IMG/VR virus record: IMGVR_UViG_3300028840_000504 | Location: 1 to 28,772 of that record | Length of the DNA: 28,772 bases | Reading direction: 5' to 3' (one strand) | Source: a virus | Shown: in pieces, positions 7,154 through 28,772 of the stretch | Layout of the letters: each line of letters opens with the position of its first letter | How positions within the stretch are numbered: the stretch's first letter is position 1 | Translations under genes and position numbers: made by a program | Notes under the pieces: model-generated | The model's database searches: none | What the model was told of the DNA's origin: nothing | The model's input: only the letters and a program-made list of their open reading frames with translations

Positions 7154-7283
7154 TTTCGTCCTCCTTGACGTTTTGGGCCTTCTTAATTGCCTCTAAAAGG
7201 GCTTCGGCCAAGGCCGAATTTTTCGGATTAGGATCTTTCACCGCAAGGATGGAATCATCCGGCTTAAGTACAATGTCCGTCAC
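7134..7283 (-). CDS. Short unrecognised gene, 49 aa, GTG start
   Basis: Starts at GTG 7283, which overlaps the fibre gene's TGA stop as GTGA, with GAGGA eight bases upstream; ends in TAA at 7136-7134, 20 bases inside the next gene. The product is hydrophilic and helical (MTDIVLKPDDSILAVKDPNP, then an Ala/Leu/Lys helix and an acidic tail). Both overlaps and the internal AAGGAGG for the next gene argue that it is translated as a linker gene in the operon. No family recognised. Confidence 0.65.
   Translation of the reverse strand: MTDIVLKPDDSILAVKDPNPKNSALAEALLEAIKKAQNVKEDENGKERS
7203..7223 (+). terminator. Possible plus-strand (antisense) terminator
   Basis: TTCGGCC-AA-GGCCGAA followed by TTTTT reads as an intrinsic terminator on the plus strand, antisense to the late operon. 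It lies inside the 49-codon gene, so coding constraint or chance palindromy is possible. It would block transcription entering the late operon from the left. Confidence 0.35.
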
Positions 7284-10200
7284 TCACACGTTCCTCGTGA
7301 ATCTGGCTTTAAGGTACGGTCTTCTGCCGCAATTACTATTGTCCGGTCCTCTGCCCGGATTATAACAAGTTGGTCAGTACAAACGAAGTCAATTTCGGAG
7401 TATGCATTTACATTGTCAGCAAAGTGTGCATGCAGCGCATCGCTGACCAACAGGATATGTTGCTGGGTAAATGTTCCGGTATCTGCCGCGTGCGCATGGA
7501 CCGCACTGGCGATATCCAGGAGATACCCCAGCGACATGCTCATTTCGTCGGCAAAATGAGCGTGGGTCGCGCTGTTGATATCGACCAAATGCTCCATCGA
7601 CAACAACGCTGCGGCGGCAATATGGCCGTGCGTCGCTGCGTCGATCAGAAGGCTATGAATCTGGGAAAGCGTGGCCGTGTCTGAACTCAGCGCATGGGTA
7701 GCACTAAAGATTGCCAGCACACCCGCTGGCGACAGGACCGCGTTGTCTGCCGTATGGCCATGAGTAGCTGCGTCGATGAGCAGGCTGTGAAGCTGGGCTA
7801 GAGTCGCATTATCAGCCGTGTGATTGTGCAGTGCATCATTAATCAACAGGGCGACAATCTCAGCCAGCGTAGCGTTATCAGCAGCGTGGCTGTGAGTCGA
7901 ATCAGCAACGATCAGGCTGTGAATTTGGCTGAGCGTAGCATTATCAGCCAAATGTCCATGTGCAGCCGCGTCTACCAGCAAGACATGAAGCTGGTTGAGA
8001 ACGATGTTCGCAGCCGAGTGTGCGTGGAGAGAGTTCGCAATCTCCAAGACACCTGTTGTAATGACAACAACCTGATCAACCGTATGCGCGTGGAGCGCGT
8101 CGTTGATAAGCAGGGTATGAAGCTGACTCAGCGCCACATTTGCTGCCGTATGCCCGTGCGCCGCATTAGCGATATCCAGCAGTGCTGTTACCAGCAGCGT
8201 AACGTTCTCAGCTGAATGCCCATGCGCAGCTGCATCGACAAGCAGCGTATGCACCTGACTTATCGTCGGAGCATCCGCCAAATGTGCATGTGCCGCAGCC
8301 GCTATGATTAGCTGGTGTACCTGAGCGAGTGTCAAGCCGTCTGCGGTATGCGCGTGGCTGGCTTCGTTTACCAACAGCGTGTGCAGCTGACTTAGCGTAG
8401 CTGCGTCTGCCGTGTGCGCATGCGTAGCCGCATTGATCAGCAGCTCTACTAACGAAGTAAGTGTTGCGTTGTCTGCGGTATGCGTATGCGTCGCCGCCGC
8501 AACGATCAGGCTATGAACCTGTGCGAGTGTCAGTCCATCAGCGGCATGAGCATGAGCAGAATCTGCAATGGAAATCGAAACTTCAATCGCAGAATAATAA
8601 TAATCTGCACCGATAGGCCATGCGGTGCCGCTGGCGGGCATGGCATCGCCATCGATGTCATAGATAGGCGACGTCAGGTCGCCCGAATCGTATAGGTTTA
8701 GGCCTGCGTCGACCAGGGATGATGATGTGGAAAGGTGATAATCGTCGTTTGCGGCGTCTAGGAACTCTGCCGAGGTTATTTCGTAAATGCTGTTTGCGCC
8801 GACTAGGTCGCTATTTGCGCTTGTCTTGCTTGACGCGTTGTAGTCTTCGTCGGTTCCAGATGCCAACAAGACCTCTATTCCGTCTATCTCAAAAAATACA
8901 TTGTTTTTTACTACGCCATTCACAGATCCAGCAGAAACAGCAAGCCCATGTATTGCATTTCCGTTGCCTACAAACACATTATTCGCAATAACAACATTGT
9001 CGCAATAGATGCCTAGACTAACCGCGTATCCGCTAGTGACTGCCGTGTTTCGAAAGAATATGTTGCTTATGATTTTTATATCATCATGATGTCCAGCTGA
9101 TTTTATACAGTTTGCGTAGCAATCCAGTATGCACCCACTAACTTCGCAGCCGGGTTCCAAATCCATCAATTCAGAATTGTATTGATATTCAATATCTAGA
9201 TTCTTAATTTTTGTATATTCTGCGACTGTCTCAAATGGTCCTTGGAATAGTCCATTGTCGTTGTAGACGCGAGCGCCACTACCCTGCGTTCCGTCATGCG
9301 CTTCGCCGCTTGCCGCTCTGAATTCCATGTAGCAAGCGGCGCTTGTTGTCCAGCCTATCGCGTTGAGATTGTCTTCAAGGCCAAAGGTTGACCCAGATCC
9401 GCCCCAATCATCCGCGTAAAGCTCAGCGGCGGCAATCTCACCAAATGCTGTCAGATCACTTCCGTATGTTGTTTGCTGCGCGGCCTCCCATGCTGTGAAG
9501 CTCGTATAGTCCGGTGCCGGGCTAGTTGCTCCTGACTCCCTTATCGCGCTGACTACTTCAACTACGCCACGGCTCGCACCTATAGGCCAATGCTCGTTCG
9601 ATGCCGAGTCGGCAAAACTAAACCCTTCGATGTCGGTATAGTCAGATGCCGTGCCAAGATCAGCGCCGGCATCGAATAGGCTGGTCGCACTTGAGTCGAT
9701 GCGATAATCGTCGTTCGCGGCGTCTAGGAACTCTGCCGCGGTTATTTCGTAAACAGCATTTGCATCTAATCCATTTAGCGCGCTTGATCCGCTCGCTACA
9801 TCTGTAGCGTTATAGGCTACTGTTTCGTTTGAAAGGTTTCCTGTTCCGGTTAACTCATTTTCGCAGTCGAAGAAAATATTGTTACTTATTGTCCATGCGT
9901 CTGCGTTTGTCCCTATTTCAATTCCTATGCTGCCACTGTTCCCGCTTCCGATTATTGTATTGTTCGCGTAAACATGATCGTCGGGAAGGTTCCCATGTGC
10001 AATTACCGCCTCCCCATTTGTTGCATGTTCAGAAAGCATCAAACAGCCAATAGCCGTAATAGCACTTCTTTGGTTGGATTTTAAGCAATTATCACCTCCC
10101 GCATTCCACATTATGCAGTTTTCTATTCTTTGAATAGCCTGCAAGCAGTAAACTGGCGGGTAGATATTCTCGGTCTTAAATTGCAGCCGTTTTAATCTGC

Positions 10201-10510
10201 AATACGACTCATCTAGCGATATGGGTTCTTGAAAGTTTTGTGTTTTCCAAACACGCGCACCAGAGTTGAGCGTTCCATCGTGTGCCTCGCCGTCTGCTGC
10301 CCGAATTTCTATATAATTCGTGGCGCTTGTTGTCCATCCTGATACAATGCAAGCATCTTCTAGACCATCGCCCGCCCAGTCGTTGTAAAGCTCGGCAACA
10401 GCGATCTCATCTGCGGTGACGAGATCGCGTTGTTGCGCAGCTTCCCAAGCCGACAGGGACGTATAGTCCCCACCAGACGAGCGAATGGAATGGACGACCT
10501 CGGTAGCCAT
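7280..10510 (-). CDS. Large tail fibre/spike with two beta-helix modules and 18 His-x-His repeats, 1076 aa
   Basis: Residues 1-313 and 316-636 are two copies of one module. Each opens with a 'DYTS-x-x-AWEAAQQ' motif, then 'GWTTSA ... Y-x-E-R-A-A-x-GEAHDGT', then right-handed parallel beta-helix sequence with N-N-x-F ladders (NNIFFDC; SNIFFRN, NNVFVGN, NNVFFEI), and closes with 'YEIT-x-AEFLDAANDDY' and WPIGA. Residues 650-1045 are eighteen 22-residue repeats without any gap, each beginning around His-x-His-x-Ala-Asp. The tail (RAEDRTIVIAAEDRTL) is a short repeat often seen at ends of phage structural proteins. Beta-helix folds are common in spikes that bind or degrade surface sugars; no catalytic residues can be assigned. 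It is the biggest gene in the window and the likeliest host-recognition protein. Ends in TGA overlapping the next GTG. Confidence 0.85.
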   Translation of the reverse strand: MATEVVHSIRSSGGDYTSLSAWEAAQQRDLVTADEIAVAELYNDWAGDGLEDACIVSGWTTSATNYIEIRAADGEAHDGTLNSGARVWKTQNFQEPISLDESYCRLKRLQFKTENIYPPVYCLQAIQRIENCIMWNAGGDNCLKSNQRSAITAIGCLMLSEHATNGEAVIAHGNLPDDHVYANNTIIGSGNSGSIGIEIGTNADAWTISNNIFFDCENELTGTGNLSNETVAYNATDVASGSSALNGLDANAVYEITAAEFLDAANDDYRIDSSATSLFDAGADLGTASDYTDIEGFSFADSASNEHWPIGASRGVVEVVSAIRESGATSPAPDYTSFTAWEAAQQTTYGSDLTAFGEIAAAELYADDWGGSGSTFGLEDNLNAIGWTTSAACYMEFRAASGEAHDGTQGSGARVYNDNGLFQGPFETVAEYTKIKNLDIEYQYNSELMDLEPGCEVSGCILDCYANCIKSAGHHDDIKIISNIFFRNTAVTSGYAVSLGIYCDNVVIANNVFVGNGNAIHGLAVSAGSVNGVVKNNVFFEIDGIEVLLASGTDEDYNASSKTSANSDLVGANSIYEITSAEFLDAANDDYHLSTSSSLVDAGLNLYDSGDLTSPIYDIDGDAMPASGTAWPIGADYYYSAIEVSISIADSAHAHAADGLTLAQVHSLIVAAATHTHTADNATLTSLVELLINAATHAHTADAATLSQLHTLLVNEASHAHTADGLTLAQVHQLIIAAAAHAHLADAPTISQVHTLLVDAAAHGHSAENVTLLVTALLDIANAAHGHTAANVALSQLHTLLINDALHAHTVDQVVVITTGVLEIANSLHAHSAANIVLNQLHVLLVDAAAHGHLADNATLSQIHSLIVADSTHSHAADNATLAEIVALLINDALHNHTADNATLAQLHSLLIDAATHGHTADNAVLSPAGVLAIFSATHALSSDTATLSQIHSLLIDAATHGHIAAAALLSMEHLVDINSATHAHFADEMSMSLGYLLDIASAVHAHAADTGTFTQQHILLVSDALHAHFADNVNAYSEIDFVCTDQLVIIRAEDRTIVIAAEDRTLKPDSRGTCE
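7376..8563 (-). repeat. Eighteen 66-bp units encoding a 22-residue His-x-His repeat
   Basis: In the fibre protein the first His of the His-x-His pair falls at residue 653 and then every 22 residues to 1027, eighteen times with no insertion or deletion. The consensus is roughly A-A-T-H-A-H-T-A-D-N-A-T-L-S-Q-L-H then a Leu/Ile/Val-rich end. Copy 14 (residue 939) has lost the second His. About half the copies carry a third His at unit position 17. DNA copies have diverged, so the array is old or strongly recoded but length is kept. Confidence 0.9.
8737..9753 (-). repeat. Near-identical 50-bp segments 966 bp apart within the fibre gene
   Basis: Bases from 8737 to about 8787 and from 9703 to about 9753 match in all but about two positions, while the surrounding beta-helix modules differ much more. 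The offset of 966 bp equals 322 codons, the module length. This marks the module duplication and suggests recent recombination or gene conversion at the segment coding for the AEFLDAANDDY end motif. Confidence 0.75.
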
Positions 10511-10830
10511 TAACTGATGTCAATCGTTCCCGTCAGGCCGAGGAACTGTTCCAGCTTCTTGTACAGCGCGTATTCTATAGCGTCCTGTACCGGCGTTCCT
10601 GGGTTGTTTGTTTGCAGTTGATCGGCCAACGTAAAAACAGATGCAAATTGCGCCTCCGGCACCGTAACCATCTGATCGTTGAACAGCACGGTAAAGGCCG
10701 AACCGTTCCAGTTGCCTAGCTGATAGCTGACATGTGCTTCGCTGCGCTCAAGATCAACAGAATAGGTGCTGATGATCAGCGCGTTTACGGTTTTGGTCTC
10801 ATCGACCGGGGTTGTGTAGTCAAATCGCAT
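10510..10830 (-). CDS. Unrecognised virion-region protein, 106 aa
   Basis: ATG at 10830 overlaps the upstream stop as TAATG, and the gene ends one base into the fibre gene, so it is translationally coupled on both sides. The product begins MRFDYTTPVDETKTVNALI, has a beta-rich middle (HVSYQLGNWNGSAFTVLFND) and a helical C-terminus with EYALYKKLEQFLGL. No signal peptide or membrane segment. Its place just before the fibre suggests a fibre adaptor, chaperone or baseplate-like component, but that is inference from position only. Confidence 0.65.
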   Translation of the reverse strand: MRFDYTTPVDETKTVNALIISTYSVDLERSEAHVSYQLGNWNGSAFTVLFNDQMVTVPEAQFASVFTLADQLQTNNPGTPVQDAIEYALYKKLEQFLGLTGTIDIS

Positions 10831-11201
10831 TAGTCTCTCCCGACTGGTTTTTGGGTGATAGTCGTATTATCCGCCTCAATCTTGTACCAACGTCGGCGGC
10901 GGCTCCGCCCTGGATTGTACTTGTCGCCTATGAGCAACGCGCGCATCAGGCGGGTGATGCGCAGCATAGATCTTGGGTTGTCGTCTTTCGGTGTGCGCGG
11001 TTCACCGGCTCGTAGGTATTCGTAGTCTGCTGCCGGTCCCGGCAGTGTGACCACACGGAAAGGCGCTTGCTGTTCCTTCGCACTGTACTCGTGCGAATCC
11101 TCAGCAACGTAAACAACATCGCCAATCTTATATGCACCTTCACGATCCTTCACTGGATCAAGGTGCGTGTTGTCACGGTCAAATACCAGTAGCTTAGCCA
11201 T
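10830..11201 (-). CDS. Conserved phage protein of the virion region, 123 aa
   Basis: I choose ATG 11201 (MAKLLVFDRDNTHLDPVKD), with AGGA nine bases upstream; the longer frame to 11276 would run through the upstream small membrane gene. The N-terminal pattern 'A-K-L-L-V-F-x-R-D-N-T-H-x-D-x-x-K-D-x-x-G-x-Y-K-x-G-D-V-V' is one I recognise as recurrent in phage virion gene clusters, always uncharacterised. The C-terminus is very basic (GRSRRRRWYKIE). The first eight bases overlap the end of the 39-residue membrane gene. Confidence 0.7.
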   Translation of the reverse strand: MAKLLVFDRDNTHLDPVKDREGAYKIGDVVYVAEDSHEYSAKEQQAPFRVVTLPGPAADYEYLRAGEPRTPKDDNPRSMLRITRLMRALLIGDKYNPGRSRRRRWYKIEADNTTITQKPVGRD

Positions 11202-11313
11202 GTTTAGTTTTCCTTTTCTGTTTTTCCAATCTATGGCCAACAGAAATGCCATATAAAACTGAAAAAATAACTGCAAATAACGCTGGAATGACTATGGATA
11301 AGAACTCAACCAT
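11194..11313 (-). CDS. Small single-span membrane protein, 39 aa
   Basis: ATG at 11313, GAGG eight bases upstream, TAA at 11196-11194 overlapping the next gene's start by eight bases. The product MVEFLSIVIPALFAVIFSVL continues to a short loop and a basic tail (RLEKQKRKTKHG). A hydrophobic segment at residues 4-26 followed by many Lys/Arg predicts one membrane span with the C-terminus in the cytoplasm. Too short to recognise. Accessory lysis or membrane function is possible, given the lysis cassette 1.3 kb upstream. Confidence 0.65.
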   Translation of the reverse strand: MVEFLSIVIPALFAVIFSVLYGISVGHRLEKQKRKTKHG

Positions 11314-11316
11314 ATC

Positions 11317-11535
11317 TCAATCCTCTGAAATAAATTCATTGGCGCGCAGTTCTTTTGCAATTTGAAACGCTAAGTCATTCCAATAATAACATTCTTCGTC
11401 TGTGTCAGGCGACGCGCAATCAACAAGGCCCGCCAGAAGTAGCACTTCTGGGTGGGGCCATTTAGTTGTATCTACCTTTACCGGACTTGCCGGTCGGGTC
11501 CTTTTTTCTCGCCCGTGTAAACGACGTCGTCCCAC
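11317..11535 (-). CDS. Short unrecognised gene, up to 72 aa, start uncertain
   Basis: The frame opens with GTG at 11535 and overlaps the upstream 88-residue gene by 58 bases. No clear ribosome site precedes that GTG. The C-terminal half (WPHPEVLLLAGLVDCASPD, then DEECYYWNDLAFQIAKELRANEF) looks like genuine protein, whereas the first 18 residues (Arg-rich) look like out-of-frame translation. A later GTG at 11445 would give 42 residues. It ends four bases before the 39-residue membrane gene. Function unknown. Confidence 0.5.
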   Translation of the reverse strand: MGRRRLHGREKRTRPASPVKVDTTKWPHPEVLLLAGLVDCASPDTDEECYYWNDLAFQIAKELRANEFISED

Positions 11536-11744
11536 GGCTGTCCGGGCAAATTTGGGTCGTCAGCTTTCATCCGGCCAAGTTCTTCAGCGAACGCAACGAG
11601 ATTCTTCGTGGCTTCCGTGTTAAACACGTTTGCTTGCGTCACATCATCGTAGAACGTTTCCCACGTAAGCCGCGACAGCAGCTGCCCACCCGTGGTGTAC
11701 TGAGTTGCCGTCACAATAACGACATCTTCTCTTTCATCACCCAT
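11478..11744 (-). CDS. Unrecognised small protein, 88 aa
   Basis: I place the start at ATG 11744 (MGDEREDVVIVTATQ) because AGGAG lies eight bases upstream and the upstream frame is occupied by a separate 45-codon gene. The product has a beta-rich N-terminus, a helix around residues 40-60 (NTEATKNLVAFAEELGRM) and a Pro/Asp-rich, then basic, C-terminus. No membrane segment or known motif. It is part of a run of small genes between the spanin region and the fibre. Confidence 0.65.
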   Translation of the reverse strand: MGDEREDVVIVTATQYTTGGQLLSRLTWETFYDDVTQANVFNTEATKNLVAFAEELGRMKADDPNLPGQPWDDVVYTGEKKGPDRQVR

Positions 11745-24551: not shown

Positions 24552-24772
24552 TGTGGGGTATTGGAATTGCCTTGTTTCTCCTGGTCCACCCGTGGGCTGG
24601 GATGGCCTGGGGCGCTGCGGTGCTTAGCGCGTGGGCGCTGGGTGACCATATGCGTCAATATCTTGACCAAATAACCGCGAGTGAACAGATTTTTCACGAT
24701 GCGGTAAAAAATGGGTCAAATGTAACGTTTCGTTACATTTTGGCCTGGATTGAGCGGCTCAGAACGCTCTAA
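24536..24772 (+). CDS. Small membrane protein, 78 aa
   Basis: Start ATG 24536 (MARLVMWGIGIALFLLVHPW), with AGGAGGG about 11 bases upstream; the longer frame to 24476 overlaps the 26-residue gene and lacks its own ribosome site. Residues about 4-36 are hydrophobic (two short spans or one long hairpin, GMAWGAAVLSAWALG), followed by a soluble helical part (MRQYLDQITASEQIFHDAVK). The codons for NVTFRYI contain the first copy of the palindrome described at 24718-24794, so that element is within the coding region. Unrecognised. Confidence 0.65.
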   Translation: MARLVMWGIGIALFLLVHPWAGMAWGAAVLSAWALGDHMRQYLDQITASEQIFHDAVKNGSNVTFRYILAWIERLRTL

Positions 24773-24794
24773 TTGTAACGTTTCGTTACATTTT
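24718..24794 (+). repeat. Two identical 17-bp palindromes, 53 bp apart, before the 104-aa gene
   Basis: TGTAACG-TTT-CGTTACA occurs at 24721-24737 and 24774-24790, each followed by TTTT; with flanking A/T bases each can fold into a hairpin of about ten pairs. The 53-bp spacing is close to five helical turns, so both copies face the same side of DNA. The first copy is in the 3' end of the 78-residue gene, the second in the 38-base gap before the next ATG. Candidate operator pair, or weak terminators/attenuators. Confidence 0.75.
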
Positions 24795-24810: not shown

Positions 24811-25125
24811 ATGAATATCTATGAAATGACCAACAATGAGCTGTATATGCTTATAGCTCCTGGACACCCATCTGGGCACTACGTGGAAGCAGTCGACGGG
24901 TGTGTAAAGCATGACATGCCCAACAGCCATTACTACGTTACCAAACGTACTAAAGAGTGCACCGAAATGTGGGTTGTACGTCACATCCACTATTTCGCCT
25001 GTTTCGACGGATGGGACAATCATGATGAAGATGTTTCAGAACATCCTACTGAGCGGGATGCACTCATGGCTGCTGTGTCGTACATGGCGCGTGCTTACTT
25101 CCAAACTATCGGGGAGGGCGTGTAA
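24811..25125 (+). CDS. Unrecognised protein, 104 aa, His/Cys-rich
   Basis: ATG at 24811 with GGAGAGG about seven bases upstream, 17 bases after the second palindrome. The product MNIYEMTNNELYMLIAPGHP contains several His and Cys residues in its middle (C..H.....H, C..., HIHYFACFDGWDNHD), which could hold a metal, though no standard spacing is met. The C-terminus is a helix (PTERDALMAAVSYMARAYFQ). It overlaps the next gene by one base (TAATG). Function unknown; the palindromes suggest separate regulation from here on. Confidence 0.65.
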   Translation: MNIYEMTNNELYMLIAPGHPSGHYVEAVDGCVKHDMPNSHYYVTKRTKECTEMWVVRHIHYFACFDGWDNHDEDVSEHPTERDALMAAVSYMARAYFQTIGEGV

Positions 25126-27733: not shown

Positions 27734-27752
27734 TCACTCTCCGGTGAAGGTT

Positions 27753-27784
27753 GGTCAGGAGCCGAAAGGCTCCTGGCCCTTTTT
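27753..27784 (+). terminator. Strong intrinsic terminator closing the rightward operon
   Basis: GGTCAGGAGCC and GGCTCCTGGCC form eleven pairs (one G-U) around a GAAA tetraloop, followed by C and five T. All features of an efficient intrinsic terminator are present. It isolates the small-gene operon from the A+T-rich region and the primase-like gene. Confidence 0.9.
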
Positions 27785-27975
27785 AAGAATGGGGGCCAGG
27801 AGAGCTACGGGGATATAGATGAAATCCGCTAGTGAAAGACCGACCATTCATTGTGGTTATTCGACCTGATCGCTGACCCGCCTTTCAACTTTCGTAATTT
27901 ACGAACGTTCCTATCCCCCCATAGAATAATACTTTTTTTTATACCTCTTATTCTTATCTATTAACTAAATTTACT

Positions 27976-28283
27976 GTAAGAATGTAAGAATAGAGAGAAT
28001 AGAGGGTATTAAAGCTCAAAAATCAACAACTTGGTCACCTTACACTTAAATGTAAGAAAACCCTCGACTTACGTAAGTTACTTAAATATAAGTATTTTCT
28101 TATTTGTTAATATATTAACTTACTAAGCATTCTCACGAAATTACTACTTATACTACTGATTTCGTAAGAATACTTAATTTTCAACGACTTACTTATTACA
28201 CTCTTACAACTTTTAAAGAGAACAACCAGAAAACAACTAGTTACAGCTCAAATTTGTAGTGAAAAATGCTTGCCCCAGCTTAC
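27976..28283. repeat. Array of eleven CTTAC/GTAAG elements
   Basis: GTAAG at 27976, 27984, 28052, 28073, 28164; CTTAC at 28039, 28068, 28119, 28188, 28203, 28279. Chance would give about one in this length. On the GTAAG strand several copies share a longer form, T/C-GTAAGAAT (27976, 27984, 28164 and nearly 28052). Three pairs form inverted repeats. The density suggests binding sites for an initiator or regulator. Confidence 0.75.
28217..28236 (+). promoter_or_regulatory. Tandem AGAGAACAA-type element, second copy
   Basis: AGAGAACAA-CC-AGAAAACAA: two 9-bp units with 11-bp period, matching the late-promoter element at 23595-23576 (minus) in all but two of 20 bases, and sharing AAG before and CT after. 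No good -10 is seen 11 bases downstream. Both copies lie close to CTTAC/GTTAC. Confidence 0.6.
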
Positions 28284-28337
28284 AAAGGTGTAATAGTCTG
28301 AGCGCCTCACCGAAGCACAATAAGGAGGTCCAGTCTC

Positions 28338-28772
28338 GTGAAACTCACGTTTCTACGCGCAGCGAATGGCCGTAAATTCGCCAAGTCAATTACCAAAAAC
28401 CAGACTGGATACTCAGTTGAACCTTATCCGAACATCCGAGAAATGCACTCCGAGACCGTTGAGGTCTCAAGTCTCACTGAGTTTAAAGACGCCTTGGTCA
28501 GCTTCGCTGCCAAGGGTTACGCTCTCTTAAAAGGCAACACCAAGAAGCAGCTGGTCAATGAGTCTCGAAAAGGCTCGCATGACCCCATAGCACCCACGTG
28601 GTGGCTCTGTATCGACTTCGATAAGCTCCTAGGTATCACTCACCCTAGACAAGCTCTTCAACTGCTAGGAAACGGTTTACAAGACGTCTCGTTCATCTAC
28701 CAGCCTAGCGCCTCAGCCAGCTATATTGACTCAGCAGACAGTTTTTCCGGGCATCTTTTCCTCCAGCTAGAG
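28338..28772 (+). CDS. Primase-like protein, N-terminal part (cut by window edge)
   Basis: GTG start at 28338, AAGGAGG nine bases upstream; 145 codons open to the window end. Product begins MKLTFLRAANGRKFAKSITK. The segment GYALLKGNTKKQLVNESRKG is followed by TWWLCIDFDKLLG near residue 95-107, a hydrophobic strand ending in D-x-D, and later SASASYIDS...SGHLFLQLE, a Ser-x-His strand. A D-x-D strand followed by an S-x-H strand is the pattern of archaeo-eukaryotic primase/PrimPol catalytic motifs I and II, and similar N-termini occur in phage primase or primase-helicase proteins. The origin-like region upstream supports a replication role. Motif III would lie outside the window. Confidence 0.6.
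   Translation, partial: MKLTFLRAANGRKFAKSITKNQTGYSVEPYPNIREMHSETVEVSSLTEFKDALVSFAAKGYALLKGNTKKQLVNESRKGSHDPIAPTWWLCIDFDKLLGITHPRQALQLLGNGLQDVSFIYQPSASASYIDSADSFSGHLFLQLE

Follow-up and report, generated by a model that had tools for sequence, protein, structure and literature searches.

A candidate iteron-type replication origin preceding the primase-helicase gene of a KPP25-like podovirus, and related arrays in other phages

The stretch of DNA analysed here (the window) is an entire IMG/VR record of 28,772 bases, which has no end repeat and is therefore a fragment of a phage genome. Genes for both terminase subunits (small and large), for a P22-like portal, for the major capsid protein and for an M15 endolysin are on its minus strand, together with a 1076-aa ORF (7280-10510) that contains His/Ala-rich repeats of ~24 residues and probably encodes a tail or virion protein, and the early genes lie on the plus strand from ~24 kb onward. 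By portal comparison, the nearest named phages are the Pseudomonas podoviruses KPP25 and phiR18 (37% identity), and two contigs from other metagenomes carry DNA identical to the window over the 1472 bp compared. Within the early region, two near-identical AAATGTAACGTTTCGTTACATTTT-like palindromes, ~55 bp apart (24717-24793), stand just before an ORF at 24811; they are operator-like, and the word cluster is also found in sister contigs. Towards the right end of the record, a gene-free gap extends from the last upstream stop codon (27733) to the GTG start codon (28338) of a primase-like gene. This gap contains just spurious ORFs of 25-38 aa, none of them credible, an Rfam search returned zero family matches, and a nucleotide search with the gap sequence against phages gave no match. 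The features of the gap are as follows:

27734-28337, no strand: gene-free gap with the candidate origin; no credible ORF and no Rfam family
27753-27778, plus strand: intrinsic-terminator-like hairpin, predicted by consensus match only to end the upstream transcript
27887-27909, no strand: imperfect palindrome AACTTTCGTAATTTACGAACGTT at the left edge (self-inverted match, 87%)
27941-27962, plus strand: pyrimidine-rich left arm of a long inverted repeat, the best of 27931-28020 (reached by 1% of shuffles)
27976-27991, plus strand: tandem iteron doublet GTAAGAAT GTAAGAAT, 8-bp period, inside the loop of the inverted repeat
27989-28010, plus strand: purine-rich right arm of the long inverted repeat
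28021-28033, plus strand: IHF-consensus site AATCAACAACTTG (consensus match)
28039-28078, no strand: iterons at 28039 (minus), 28052 (plus), 28068 (minus) and 28073 (plus), including the palindrome ACTTACGTAAGT at 28067-28078
28078-28120, no strand: A+T-rich core with the palindrome GTTAATATATTAAC, a candidate unwinding zone (78-88% A+T in 40-bp steps, the record maximum)
28119-28283, no strand: right-hand iterons at 28119 (minus), 28164 (plus), 28188 (minus), 28203 (minus) and 28279 (minus)
28124-28176, no strand: imperfect inverted repeat TAAGCATTCTCACGAAAT ... ATTTCGTAAGAATACTTA (53 bp, 75% self-complementary, E 8e-8), bearing one degenerate and one intact iteron
28338-28772, plus strand: DUF5906 primase/SF3-helicase gene, N-terminal 145 aa, cut by the record end

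The pentamer GTAAG/CTTAC occurs exactly 11 times within 308 bp (27976-28283), and its remaining 35 copies in the window are dispersed across 27.6 kb. Three of the clustered copies are extended to GTAAGAAT (starts at 27976, 27984 and 28164), and two perfect palindromes of 12 bp (28067-28078) and 14 bp (28106-28119) are present; at least two palindromes of at least 12 bp were seen in 1.8% of shuffles. The count of CTTAC compares with 0.74 expected from composition, and none of 2000 dinucleotide shuffles matched its clustering when all pentamers were considered family-wise. All these elements had been described in the initial annotation, which took a random spread of the motif as evidence against an origin; none of the 548 other tiles of the window equals the CTTAC cluster. 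That annotation was also right about an A+T-rich, gene-free gap before a primase-like gene, with figures that are here revised from about 72% to 70.7% A+T (27891-28283) and from 550 to 604 bp. The richest A+T 120-bp stretch of the entire record (28081-28200) lies inside the array, and six iterons are located to the left and five to the right of positions 28078-28118. Repeat clustering far above chance in non-coding DNA, and an A+T-rich element adjoining the iterons that could serve in unwinding, are thus both found here at the sequence level, as in iteron-type origins. Exact words of at least six bases, evaluated in the window alone, display modest clustering (for k=6, p = 0.02, with 33 other tiles equal or better), and the regularity of this array is below that of the arrays in relatives described below. 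No DnaA boxes were found in the gap, and promoter consensus matches in the window are not more frequent than in shuffles.

The complete primase-helicase gene (806 aa) was identified in a contig of the same phage (L003:8001-10421), where tandem small genes encoding near-pure Gly-Tyr repeats (10760-11600) lie downstream of it. The protein contains a DUF5906 domain (PF19263, E 2.9e-19) and a Walker A motif (GTTGTGKG), and residues D93, D95 and H139, invariant in 11 sequences, were assigned by inspection as putative AEP primase motifs (DxD, then H). The closest solved structure to its AlphaFold model (pLDDT 82) is the C-terminal region of NrS-1 PrimPol (Z 27.4), and matches were also obtained to the SaPI5 primase-helicase (Z 18.4), to poxvirus D5/E5 and, more weakly, to AAV Rep and papillomavirus E1, all of which are SF3-type replicative helicases, including several origin binders. 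The gene product is a DUF5906 primase/SF3-helicase, modelled with the NrS-1 PrimPol fold. Its C-terminal 160 residues, the least conserved portion of the primase-helicase, are modelled as a winged helix (pLDDT 84) whose best match corresponds to NrS-1 residues 620-718 (Z 7.5; the next match scores 4.0, and other winged helices at most 4).

A scan of genome contigs with the full protein as query returned no relative; a profile search with the primase recovered ten relatives at 28-37% identity, plus the two same-phage contigs. The whole contigs of these relatives were subjected to an unbiased clustered-word scan and, separately, to a ranking by A+T content. The search for the motif in relatives, which had been proposed as a check, revealed that the architecture of the array recurs and is confined, in a given genome, to one or two intergenic positions rich in A+T. 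Related octamers (TCGTAACA, GTTCCGAA and GTGTAACA) are arranged around an A+T-rich core, and the array coincides with the 120-bp maximum of A+T content in its contig or comes close to it. In G003, G005, G008, G010 and G012, the richest 120 bp directly precede the primase-helicase gene, as in the window, and contain tandem and inverted short repeats, usually with a pyrimidine/purine inverted repeat. G006 harbors GTTCCGAA arrays, one of them ~0.8 kb before the primase gene, and the arrays of KPP25 and G011 do not adjoin this gene: all 13 copies of TCGTAACA in KPP25 (64 kb) fall in two arrays, one at 26.4 kb and the other at 58.3 kb, and all 19 copies in G011 likewise fall in two arrays. A single DnaA box, TTATCCACA, lies just before an array of KPP25. 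The placement of iterons on both sides of the core is clearer in the relatives, and in the more distant phages RDJL1 and MJing1, than in the window. The clustered-word scan detected no clear iterons in phiA008, G007 and G009; phiA008 and G009 contain an A+T-rich gap with inverted repeats. High-scoring coding repeats in KPP25 (30 kb), G007 (24-25 kb), G001 (4.2-5.0 kb) and PaMx28 were excluded as protein repeats. Two further loci were observed, namely a strong inverted repeat, TATACCCTCTTT...AAAGAGGGGGTATA, at 3850-3932 of L024 (contig of L014), which lies in a gap rich in A+T and is array-like in style without clear iterons, and seven tandem AGGGTT units, telomere-like, in the phage contig L036 (18203-18250; contig of L008).

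The recognition word follows the protein clade, being TCGTAACA in KPP25 and G011, GTGTAAG in G008 and G010, and CTTTAGAAC in G003 and G012, and closer proteins have closer iteron words. When aligned by eye, the words TTCGTAACA, TTCGGAACA, GTGTAACA, GTGTAAGT, ATGTAAGAA and TTAGAACT look like variants of one motif. Furthermore, alignment of the two arrays of one genome showed that the iterons are 84-88% identical, compared with 59% outside them, which indicates selection acting on the repeats. Between the window and its relatives, no credible shared genes were found beside the array except a small-terminase homologue 3-5 kb upstream, so that gene order does not account for the conservation. The IHF consensus is present in 4 of 15 arrays, including that of the window, against 0.31 expected, and none of 400 shuffle sets reached four. 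The extremes of GC skew are displaced by ~2-9 kb from most of the arrays and by more from the remainder, with inconsistent signs in the window and KPP25; this skew is probably dominated by gene orientation.

Arrays of this kind were also found near some of the more distant DUF5906-type genes, among nine records picked for diversity out of 166 matches, a sample that does not constitute a survey. Immediately downstream of the PrimPol gene of Nitratiruptor phage NrS-1 lie 11 copies of AGTGTAAC together with an inverted repeat that is A+T-rich (L053 17060-17380), overlapping the annotated ORF NRS1_29, and on sequence grounds we regard this region as a candidate origin. In RDJL1, Mcat5, MJing1 and ZQG1, arrays of other words with an A+T-rich core adjoin the DUF5906-type primase gene or lie within ~2 kb of it; iteron arrays of GCTATACA (L054 9250-9530), CCTGCACA (L055 5270-5580), ACCCTGAC (L056 1450-1700) and GTCCGA (L062 7200-7650) are located near the DUF5906 primase genes of Roseobacter, Moraxella, Microcystis and Pseudomonas phages. 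Among the sampled records, FoX4, Bm1 and Milano displayed no clear array near the primase and PaMx28 is without one; Vibrio D63, also sampled, was counted neither with nor without an array. The paper on phage TLS reports no iterons in TLS.

Taken together, these results suggest that the gap at 27.9-28.3 kb is probably an iteron-type replication origin of a KPP25-like podovirus, which its own primase/SF3-helicase would bind, and, judged from sequence, copying of the phage DNA most likely begins there. The candidate origin put forward in the initial annotation is supported by the recurrence of the array in distant relatives, the linkage to DUF5906/SF3 genes, and the conservation of the repeats relative to their diverged flanks. 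In the proposed mechanism, the 806-aa protein would bind GTAAGAA-type iterons flanking the A+T-rich core, with contact made through its C-terminal winged-helix domain; host IHF, given the frequency of its consensus among the arrays, may help by bending the DNA at 28021-28033; and hexamers of the primase-helicase would form on the core and at either side of it, melting the DNA there before priming, so that theta replication would begin at the core. We infer binding, melting and initiation from SCCmec Cch2 and the PICI origins.

In the origins of PICI/SaPI elements, short iterons form two sets, one on each side of an A+T-rich core (PMC6092414), and the array in the window shares this layout along with an initiator (primase-helicase/Rep) of related fold; by analogy, it appears to work as those origins do. 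Since two iteron sets flanking an A+T-rich core are already published (PMC6092414), the new design claimed for the origin in the initial annotation is unsupported. The array is nevertheless not classed as a PICI/SaPI origin because both position and carrier differ: it is located 5' of the primase-helicase gene, in contrast to 3' of rep, and it belongs to a full-size podovirus with its own terminase, P22-like portal and major capsid protein, not to a satellite borrowing a helper virion. Moreover, iteron orientation is mixed here, and in several relatives a second array lies roughly half a genome away from the first. In SCCmec, the C-terminal domain of the initiator helicase Cch2 binds 5-nt iterons, AAGTG (PMC7581432); the iteron length is the same as here and the mode of binding, demonstrated for Cch2, is presumed for our protein, although SCCmec has its helicase and its primase in two distinct proteins and its repeats cover a short region. 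Bacillus phage SPP1 has two distant direct-repeat sites with an A+T-rich unwinding element in one genome, oriL and oriR (PMC6316719). This resembles the two similar repeat/A+T-rich sites per genome of the KPP25 group, G011, G006 and G010, but SPP1 employs the origin-binding gp38 and a DnaB-type helicase, and its sites are ~13 kb apart. Satellite phage P4 encodes alpha, a fused primase, helicase and origin binder acting with two iteron-bearing cis sites, ori and crr; the likeness is drawn from description and not from sequence, and the iteron sequences differ, as does the small satellite genome. Both alpha and the ori of P4 are mentioned in PMC6092414. NrS-1 offers the closest solved structure and an iteron array adjoining the PrimPol gene, but it is a temperate siphovirus with the array 3' of that gene; the NrS-1 PrimPol paper discusses two 8-nt priming sites as a possible origin, and the passages of it that were searched do not mention the AGTGTAAC array (PMC7102993).

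An array of this kind could instead consist of operators, as the initial annotation considered in proposing a regulator-binding array at a master early promoter: a phage regulator, or an autoregulating primase-helicase, would act on the GTAAG sites at a strong promoter of the replication operon, and the A+T richness would be that of promoter DNA. The position of the array immediately upstream of the primase gene, which has a good ribosome-binding site, and its separation from the upstream genes by a terminator-like hairpin agree with such a role. However, promoter-like matches are not commoner than in shuffles, and in the annotated cases arrays occupy gaps between co-directional genes, including, in KPP25, one between two early genes and another within the late operon; these positions, as well as those 3' of the primase gene in NrS-1, Mcat5, MJing1 and ZQG1, are unfit for a primase promoter. 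We therefore consider regulation alone unlikely. Autoregulation is often found together with origin function, and the array may, besides being an origin, also take part in controlling the primase promoter, but such control does not explain the arrays 3' of the gene or within the late operon.

The two arrays of one genome are separated, centre-to-centre, by 0.496 of the genome in KPP25, 0.496 in G011, 0.462 in G006 and 0.391 in G010, and by 0.497 in phiR18, 0.486 in CRPAP1904 and 0.499 in YMC17; KPP25 and the latter three belong to the same genus and thus represent one lineage. In G006 and G010 the two ends overlap by 127 bp, as would be expected of complete circles, and the G011 fraction is provisional because this genome may be incomplete. 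G003, G005 and phiA008 each have a single site, and the window, part of a genome, has one array. Paired arrays could represent two origins, or an origin and a late origin or fork barrier as in SPP1, whose initiator, when bound at the second origin, has been proposed to arrest the fork and so set off the synthesis of concatemers (PMC3485210, PMC6316719). Both this proposal and the spacing of about half a genome in KPP25, G011, G006 and G010 would also suit a fork barrier, terminus or partition/packaging signal in place of an origin, the two-copy relatives then having one origin and one barrier. Nonetheless, iterons flanking an A+T-rich core, the signature of origins, are present in both copies, no partition genes were found in the KPP25 annotation, and two opposite copies are ill-suited to a single pac site, making such a function quite improbable for the array in the window. 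Finally, a chance cluster in a low-complexity A+T-rich gap would fit the modest clustering of exact words of at least six bases, but it is hardly credible and largely refuted by the sequence comparisons, given a family-wise p below 1/2000 for the pentamer, the repetition of the architecture in distant relatives and the conservation of iterons against diverged flanks.

With an origin as the preferred reading, we tentatively propose, as a possibility somewhat short of even, that KPP25-like phages have a pair of satellite-type iteron origins spaced by roughly half the genome, with a single SF3 primase-helicase binding the two; one origin would start theta replication, and the other would be either a late origin or a programmed barrier to the fork, switching replication to concatemers. 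In this proposal, origins of the class would occur together with DUF5906 PrimPols in many full-size phages. The novelty lies in finding, in full-size phages, a layout until now ascribed for the most part to small satellite elements, and in the fact that several of these phages have it twice. Arrays beside DUF5906 primase-helicases, including that of NrS-1, connect phage and satellite replication, and candidate origins become testable for phages lacking known start sites; in the case of the paired arrays, a switch from theta to concatemer synthesis becomes testable in culturable Pseudomonas phages.
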